Assembly (NCBI GenBank): GCA_947585595.1
Contig: CANPXB010000011.1
Location: 1-45,874, forward strand
DNA: 45,874 bases
Direction of reading: 5' to 3'
Source of the DNA: an uncultured Bacilli bacterium
GTDB taxonomy: Bacteria; Bacillota_I; Bacilli_A; RF39; UBA660
Shown here piece after piece: positions 45,384-45,792 of the stretch. The position numbers and the translations under genes were made by a program. Position 1 is the stretch's first letter; each line of letters opens with the position of its first letter. The notes below the pieces were generated by a model, which saw only the letters and a list, made by a program, of their open reading frames with translations, did no database searches and was not told the DNA's origin.

Positions 45384-45412
45384 TTGTATGCTAAGTGCGT
45401 ATTTGATACAAT
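45384..45412 (+). promoter_or_regulatory. promoter for the small hydrophobic peptide gene
   Basis: TTGTAT (45384-45389), spacer 17, TACAAT (45407-45412) with an extended TG. Initiation is expected at GGAACATT (45420). Confidence 0.65.
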
Positions 45413-45419
45413 TATATTA

Positions 45420-45447
45420 GGAACATTCAATAGTTGGGTGGTTGCCA
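45420..45447. repeat. left arm of an inverted repeat around the small-peptide locus
   Basis: GGAACATTCAAT (45420-45431) and GTTGGGTGGTTGCCA (45433-45447) recur inverted at 45623-45634 (12 of 12) and 45601-45614 (one base shorter). Each arm begins 7 bases after its own -10 element. Confidence 0.85.
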
Positions 45448-45476
45448 ACTTTCTTTATGAAAGGAGGCATGATATT

Positions 45477-45554
45477 ATGACTAAAAAAGATTTCATAATC
45501 TATTTACTGTTCATAATTATTTTTTTACTATTTGGATTATTATATCTAAAATGA
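45477..45554 (+). CDS. 25-residue hydrophobic peptide, candidate type I toxin
   Basis: 25 residues: a charged start MTKKDF, one continuous Ile/Leu/Phe membrane helix and a final Lys. The full AAAGGAGG ribosome binding site lies 9 bases before the ATG, the best Shine-Dalgarno in the window. CTTT-ATG-AAAG (45453-45463) can hide it in part. The mRNA leader of 57 nt and the inverted repeats fit a type I toxin: a small membrane-active peptide silenced by an antisense RNA and by mRNA folding. No match to Fst, TxpA or Ldr by sequence; assignment rests on layout. Confidence 0.6.
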   Translation: MTKKDFIIYLLFIIIFLLFGLLYLK

Positions 45555-45589
45555 AAAAAACACCTAACTCAAGCAACTTGATTTAGGTG
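45554..45589. terminator. convergent terminator hairpin shared by the peptide mRNA and the antisense RNA
   Basis: CACCTAA (45561-45567) and TCAAG (45569-45573) pair with CTTGA (45577-45581) and TTAGGTG (45583-45589). On the minus strand the A-run 45554-45560 gives a 7-U tail, so it is a good terminator leftward; rightward no T-tract follows. Confidence 0.75.
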
Positions 45590-45600
45590 CCCCAATTTTA

Positions 45601-45634
45601 TGGCAACACCCAACAATGAGAAATTGAATGTTCC
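45601..45634. repeat. right arm of the inverted repeat around the small-peptide locus
   Basis: TGGCAACACCCAAC (45601-45614) and ATTGAATGTTCC (45623-45634), followed by ATTTTTT (45635-45641). In the plus-strand RNA these can pair with 45420-45447 to bring the 5' and 3' ends together. Confidence 0.85.
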
Positions 45635-45641
45635 ATTTTTT

Positions 45642-45672
45642 ATTATATGAAGTTTCCTTCATCTGTATTCAA
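45642..45672 (-). promoter_or_regulatory. promoter for the antisense RNA
   Basis: Minus-strand TTGAAT (45667-45672), spacer 19, TATAAT (45642-45647). The -10 is perfect, the spacing is long. Confidence 0.5.
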
Positions 45673-45680
45673 TATAACAT

Positions 45681-45706
45681 AAAAACGTACTTTATACAAG
45701 TACGTT
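45681..45706 (-). terminator. intrinsic terminator of the tRNA-Arg transcript
   Basis: On the minus strand AACGTACTT and AAGTACGTT form a 9-bp stem (45698-45706 and 45684-45692), followed by a U-tract from the A-run at 45681-45685. Confidence 0.8.
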
Positions 45707-45715
45707 ATTATTATA

Positions 45716-45792
45716 TGGTGTCCCCGAAGTGATTCGAACACTTGACCGATCGCTTAGAAGGCGATTGCTCTATCCAGCTGAGCTACGAGGAC
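45716..45792 (-). tRNA. tRNA-Arg (anticodon UCU)
   Basis: 77 nt on the minus strand including an encoded CCA. Acceptor stem GTCCTCG with CGGGGAC (one T-G pair), discriminator A, D-arm with AGCTGGATA, anticodon stem ATCGC/GCGAT around loop CTTCTAA (anticodon TCT), and T-arm AAGTG-TTCGAAT-CACTT. All cloverleaf elements are intact. It reads AGA codons, which are common in this window. Confidence 0.95.

Follow-up and report, generated by a model that had tools for sequence, protein, structure and literature searches.

The locus poses the question of whether a 25-residue open reading frame (ORF), enclosed by inverted repeats and faced by a convergent RNA gene, forms a type I toxin-antitoxin module of a kind not described before. 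It occupies an intergenic site at the end of the analysed window, the 45,874-nt contig CANPXB010000011.1 of an uncultured Bacilli bacterium (GCA_947585595.1). Comparison among related copies shows a conserved peptide, conserved arms, predicted hairpins and promoters, and a candidate LexA-type operator, and we consider it highly probable that the locus is a type I toxin-antitoxin system of a previously undescribed multi-copy family, with putative toxicity and putative transcripts. Within this assignment, SOS control of many family members is the best reading of the sequence data. The combination of antisense control and mRNA fold-back that had originally been predicted is thus the best-supported explanation, carried by compensatory changes and strand-specific wobble pairs; the accompanying idea of an identical 12-base 5' end on both RNAs is wrong for the minus-strand RNA.

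Locus anatomy and the conserved peptide

The site is bordered by an AAA+ ATPase-like gene and a tRNA-Arg gene (Table 1). The ORF with its Shine-Dalgarno sequence (SD) was found between the inverted-repeat arms as claimed, and the plus-strand arm indeed follows its own −10 element at a distance of 7 nt, with the TACAAT of a TTGTAT-N17-TACAAT promoter ending 7 nt upstream of GGAAC at 45420. The predicted toxin mRNA has the 5' sequence GGAACATTCAATAGTTGGGTGGTTGCC. Among the family copies, a TTG-N16–18-TANNNT promoter lies 6–10 nt ahead of the arm in 148 of 171, with a 17-nt spacing in 135. The 3' end is assumed to lie at the T-tract, where the local hairpin is weak, and the mRNA would be roughly 220 nt long.

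Table 1 Features read from the sequence of the locus, with positions in the window
Feature	Position	Strand	Description
AAA+ ATPase-like gene	43738–45333		Gene on one side of the site
Toxin promoter	45384–45412	+	−35 TTGTAT (45384–45389), N17, −10 TACAAT (45407–45412); sequence reading
mRNA 5' arms	45420–45446	+	A GGAACATTCAAT (45420–45431), B GTTGGGTGGTTGCC (45433–45446); start predicted at 45420
Leader hairpin over SD	45442–45469	+	Predicted partial sequestration of SD AAAGGAGG (45460–45467)
Toxin-candidate ORF	45477–45554	+	25 residues, hydrophobic, single helix, group I; MTKKDFIIYLLFIIIFLLFGLLYLK
Antitoxin terminator hairpin	45554–45590	−	CACCTAA..TTAGGTG + U7; ends at the peptide stop codon
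Antitoxin RNA	45554–45664	−	~110 nt, presumed start ~45664; covariance model R1
mRNA 3' arms	45601–45641	+	B' (45601–45614), A' (45623–45634), T-tract (45636–45641); presumed 3' end
Antitoxin hairpin 2 (A/B element)	45602–45634	−	GGAACATTCAAT..GTTGGGTGTTGCC
Antitoxin 5' hairpin	45647–45662	−	ATGAAG-GAAA-CTTCAT, GNRA tetraloop
Antitoxin promoter	45671–45699	−	−35 TTGTAT (45699–45694), N17, extended −10 TG-T-TATATT (hexamer 45676–45671)
tRNA-Arg	45716–45792	−	Gene on the other side of the site

The window peptide belongs to what we term group I, characterised by M[NST]KKDFLI followed by ~20 mostly hydrophobic residues. The peptide profile matched 96 of the 193 genomes in the host's GTDB family, spread over 85 of its 148 genera. 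A dN/dS of ~0.19 indicates purifying selection; K4 and D5 are invariant among 109 27-mers, and the KKD head of this single-helix peptide is almost invariant. The locus thereby has the small, hydrophobic, selected peptide with an SD that marks the type I class, conserved throughout the family. The peptide family was not recognised in the original prediction, and searches of Pfam, NCBIfam, and PHROGs returned nothing credible for it and no match above cut-off. We infer that the peptide inserts in the membrane and slows or arrests the cell, and refer to it as a putative toxin.

A putative convergent antitoxin RNA with its own promoter

On the minus strand, transcription had been expected to start at the arm, 7 nt past an adjacent TATAAT −10 element. 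This arm-adjacent promoter has a −35 element in only 11 of 164 copies, against 160 of 164 with an equivalent of the upstream promoter in Table 1 (TTG-N17-TANNNT; extended TGN in 151; 9% of shuffles), which ends ~34–35 nt upstream of its arm. An additional 5' hairpin precedes the repeated block in the predicted antitoxin and, because the promoter lies ~34 nt farther upstream, the 12-nt block would be shared internally by the two RNAs and not as the first bases of both. The original prediction was correct about the other end of this RNA, a hairpin with a U7 tail beside the peptide stop codon. At the sequence level, the locus thus contains the complementary antisense RNA gene with its own promoter and terminator that is typical of type I systems. 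In the covariance model R1, changes on both sides (compensatory changes) occur in 11 of 19 pairs.

The 5' hairpin with a 4-nt loop is found in 117 of 164 antitoxin copies (0.29 in shuffled sequences) and is thus not universal; 91 of the 117 loops are of the GNRA type. CAAG-GAAA-CUUG and GAAG-GAAA-CUUC are typical forms, and the fourth pair is C-G in 76 copies and G-C in 35. From this hairpin to the arm runs an A-rich stretch, the complement of the mRNA T-tract. The palindrome at the minus promoter was also considered as an operator and rejected, as an RNA hairpin is the likelier explanation for its GNRA loops (GAAA, GGAA, GCAA) and for a site on the downstream side of a well-conserved promoter. 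Separately, the antitoxin −35 element is located inside a terminator-like hairpin (AACGTACTTGTATAAAGTACGTT plus T-run, 45684–45706) between tRNA-Arg and the antitoxin, and a similar hairpin is present at this place in 47 of 163 copies versus 1.5% of shuffles; such a hairpin may keep read-through transcription out of the antitoxin gene.

Copy number, distribution, and related peptide groups

A DNA search yielded seven matches in the host genome, with 22 of 59 relatives also matched, and the 5'-end pattern recovered at least 118 stretches in named genomes. Nearly all of the 5'-end matches listed were from uncultured gut MAGs labelled Bacilli, Tenericutes, Mollicutes, or Erysipelotrichaceae, with Candidatus Onthousia also among them. 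Of 296 genomes sampled across the class, 14 had a peptide match, and every one of these belongs to the host's GTDB family. The search for peptide plus repeat arms in relatives, which had been proposed as a check, found both kept together with the two promoters and the terminator over dozens of genera. One outlier in the class-wide sample, detected with the antitoxin model, is a complete group II locus (L382, genome G371) in another family, which may reflect horizontal transfer or a misbinned contig. Rfam at the gathering score recognised only the neighbouring tRNA, and our literature search found nothing on the host group. Two pattern matches on viral contigs were each dismissed as chance occurrences within unrelated coding sequence.

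Searches with R1 located 12 antitoxin loci in the host genome, a draft MAG (96% complete, 6% contamination) for which copy numbers are therefore approximate, and up to 23 in another genome; copies are partly tandem and form arrays. Six of the 12 host loci face an intact toxin, and the other six (L300, L301, L303, L304 at 501–596, L305 at 550–644, and L308) face a relic or nothing. Such toxin-less antitoxins are the pattern expected if the peptide is harmful, since a toxin can decay while its antitoxin must stay. The copies L305 and L308 have lost the 5' hairpin.

Reading the strand opposite R1 loci revealed three further peptide groups on the same RNA scaffold: group II (M..KTF.IK.L...IILFLL...VIKK; 89 of 193 genomes), group III (MRK.EKYLC.IIILLIIVILIILIKIVPT; 39 of 193 genomes), and group IV (MTKRE...FIIIILLF..V..LYK). 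Their arm sequences are group-specific, each matching its own antitoxin, and the peptides had no match in Pfam or NCBIfam. Loci bearing groups II–IV include L302, L304, L306, L307, L310, L313–L316, L318, and L319.

Predicted fold-back of the toxin mRNA

The longest exact inverted repeat comprises the 12 bp of A and A', a length reached in one of 200 shuffles, and B and B' form a second arm pair. Pairing of the 5' and 3' mRNA ends over both arm pairs, as originally proposed, was recovered when 45420–45641 was folded (−68.4 kcal/mol, z = −8.2, ends paired). The main pairing tests were based on a peptide-anchored set, that is, copies picked irrespective of their arms, because in the pattern-based set the 5' arm is predetermined by the way the copies were selected. 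In this set, 5' arms pair with their own 3' ends at a mean of −29.0 kcal/mol, compared with −23.1 for the 3' ends of other copies and −14.6 for shuffled sequences. The arms of L287, L262, L272, and L281 are wholly or largely divergent, yet 5' still matches 3'. The predicted fold-back pairing probability averages 0.97 (72 copies).

Mismatches between the arms are strongly biased on the mRNA strand, with 172 G.U versus 37 A.C cells (110 versus 34 distinct contexts), although related copies are among them and the cells are therefore not independent observations. On the mRNA strand, fold-back seems to be under selection as RNA pairing, since maintenance of a repeat at the DNA level would not be expected to favour G.U over A.C in this way; the excess could in part be due to constraint on antitoxin hairpin 2 or on a weak mRNA 5' hairpin. 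Covariation and prediction together point to a conserved long-range 5'–3' pairing of the toxin mRNA of the kind found in hok.

The same bias bears on a reading of the locus as a MITE-like short mobile element, in which the arms would be terminal inverted repeats and the ORF incidental. Inverted repeats in multiple, partly tandem copies are what such an element would produce, whereas subfamilies with diverged arms that remain paired with more G.U than A.C are not, nor are an ORF under purifying selection and a conserved block that extends beyond both arms and through two promoters. DNA and peptide searches of phage and plasmid records gave no match, although low-complexity filtering may hide peptide matches, and we regard a mobile element as highly improbable.

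The arms might instead serve the antitoxin RNA only, as a duplicated regulatory hairpin maintained by gene conversion, and the mRNA would then not fold back at all; this, too, would be a type I locus. Hairpin 2 is indeed strongly selected on the antitoxin strand, where it has a G.U excess and folds at −12.1 kcal/mol versus −7.0 for the mRNA strand (means of 66 copies; stabler on the antitoxin strand in 63 of 66), and this constraint could shape the 3' arm. It would leave unexplained the preference for G.U over A.C where the 5' arms meet the 3' arms on the mRNA strand, and also that the B element pairs more stably with the stop-proximal sequence of the same copy than with those of other copies in 72 of 75 cases, a preference that suggests staged folding of the growing mRNA. 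We therefore judge antitoxin-only arms unlikely and favour an mRNA closed by its own ends.

Sequestration of the SD was assessed on predicted leader structures. The probability of an unpaired SD averages 0.17 versus 0.33 with shuffled leaders (72 copies); for the 5' fragment of the window copy it is 0.40, with no gain over shuffled sequences. Alignment of the leaders distinguishes two types that pair differently, UUGCC..GGCGA and ACCUC..GAGGU.

LexA boxes in toxin promoters

All family genomes of the first relatives sample encode lexA, and the motif RAACAWWTGTTYG recurs upstream of lexA and recA in family genomes. The same motif occurs at a fixed position between the −35 and −10 elements of toxin promoters: a LexA box with at least 9 of 10 core positions is present in 73 of 171 (~43%; 5.1 in shuffles), compared with 3 of 170 antitoxin promoters (Fisher p = 2e-22). 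Boxes are also found in groups II and III, including a perfect AAACAAATGTTTG in a group III copy on another contig (C2) of the host genome. The toxin promoter of the window copy lacks a LexA box at this threshold (best score 7 of 10), and SOS control is therefore ascribed to many family members and not to the window copy. The comparison thus points to a LexA-type operator conserved in many toxin promoters, from which we infer SOS induction. One class of LexA-less promoters has a spacer that is conserved near GAAATTAATATGATACTAT and might be a further operator (L071, L086, L087, L114, L161, L165, L231, and others). Many LexA-less promoters also have TGTTCG just 5' of the −35 element (L212, L234, L239, L251, L266, L273, L016, L158), perhaps a displaced half-box or a different operator.

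LexA boxes in many copies would also suit a small SOS-induced membrane regulator, such as a modulator of division or respiration of the SidA or DinQ sort, silenced by antisense RNA without being a toxin, and the almost invariant head of the single helix could be a protein contact. A history as toxin-antitoxin better fits the many divergent copies per genome, their tandem arrays, and the toxin-less antitoxin relics, and several unrelated-looking peptide groups on one scaffold also speak against a dedicated regulator, which we consider quite unlikely.

Putative mechanism and significance

Under the preferred type I model, the toxin promoter would give rise to an mRNA for the membrane peptide that is closed by its paired ends and has its SD hidden. 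The convergent antitoxin, expressed from its own promoter, would be fully complementary to the 3' region of this mRNA. As antitoxin hairpin 2 repeats the A/B element of the mRNA 5' end, the antitoxin would have to displace that end in order to pair with the mRNA 3' end. The resulting duplex would then probably be cleaved by RNase III, by analogy with bsrG/SR4; repression through a duplex and RNase III is known for bsrG/SR4 and txpA/RatA (PMC6562991, PMC4147584). Where a LexA box is present, DNA damage would raise toxin mRNA above the antitoxin, as damage shifts the ratio toward the toxin for tisB (PMC4147584), and the peptide would enter the membrane, where it would slow the cell or bring it to arrest.

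There is about an even chance that the groups together form a superfamily of SOS-linked type I modules, in which a single scaffold, made up of a closed mRNA and an antitoxin that copies its 5' element and opens the closure by invasion, serves four or more peptide groups, each with pairing arms of its own, reaching up to ~23 antitoxins, many with their own toxin, per 1–1.5 Mb gut-bacterial genome. In the literature consulted, SOS-controlled type I toxins are described only for E. coli, with symE, tisB, and dinQ named as the examples in a review (PMC6562991); small-genome gut Bacilli, a separate lineage, appear to have E. coli-like SOS wiring, repeated many times within a genome. The co-evolving RNA pair, with an antitoxin that repeats the mRNA 5' element, offers dozens of natural compensatory variants for studying how fold-back and strand displacement time toxin production and how paralogous antitoxins retain specificity.

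Comparison with known type I systems

Closure of the full-length mRNA by structure is a likeness to hok/sok. In hok mRNA, closure involves long-range 5'–3' pairing and metastable 5' structures. Sok targets the 5' UTR and works via the mok reading frame (PMC4147584), whereas the antitoxin described here overlaps the 3' region only and no upstream ORF was seen. Hok peptide matches at cut-off were not found; one relative had a HokA score of 12.4 bits versus 89.

Convergent RNAs, a Gram-positive setting, and repeats in both RNAs are shared with fst/par of pAD1 (RNA I/RNA II; PMC4147584). The par repeats are direct (DRa/DRb) and make the RNAs complementary there, whereas the arms of the present family read as inverted, as had been noted originally, so that its RNAs are alike at the repeats and complementary in the 3' region only. 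The terminator is shared in fst/par and the RNA ends are separate here, and the peptide has no Fst match in Pfam or NCBIfam.

A similar layout is that of bsrG/SR4, bsrE/SR5, and txpA/RatA of Bacillus subtilis, whose RNAs overlap at the 3' end by ~100–140 nt (PMC4147584, PMC6562991). With bsrG/SR4 and bsrE/SR5 the family has in common the 3'-end overlap, a small hydrophobic peptide, and an antitoxin of several stem-loops, and with bsrG an SD held in a short stem (PMC4147584, PMC6562991). It differs in that the peptide has no Pfam or NCBIfam match to the BsrG/TxpA family (Rfam BsrG 13.3 bits versus a gathering score of 55), the A/B element is repeated in both RNAs, and many members have a LexA box; for bsrG, bsrE, and yonT, a review describes temperature-dependent RNA decay (PMC6562991).

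A LexA-controlled, tiny, single-helix membrane peptide with an RNA antitoxin is also the design of tisB/istR-1 and dinQ/agrB of E. coli, and DNA damage induces tisB and not istR-1 (PMC4147584, PMC3567139). The tisB/istR-1 genes differ in being divergent with a 21-nt pairing in the 5' UTR, and their sequences are unrelated and from another phylum. As judged from sequence and RNA models, the new family thus resembles bsrG/SR4 in layout and, in many of its members, tisB in control, and is a member of neither.
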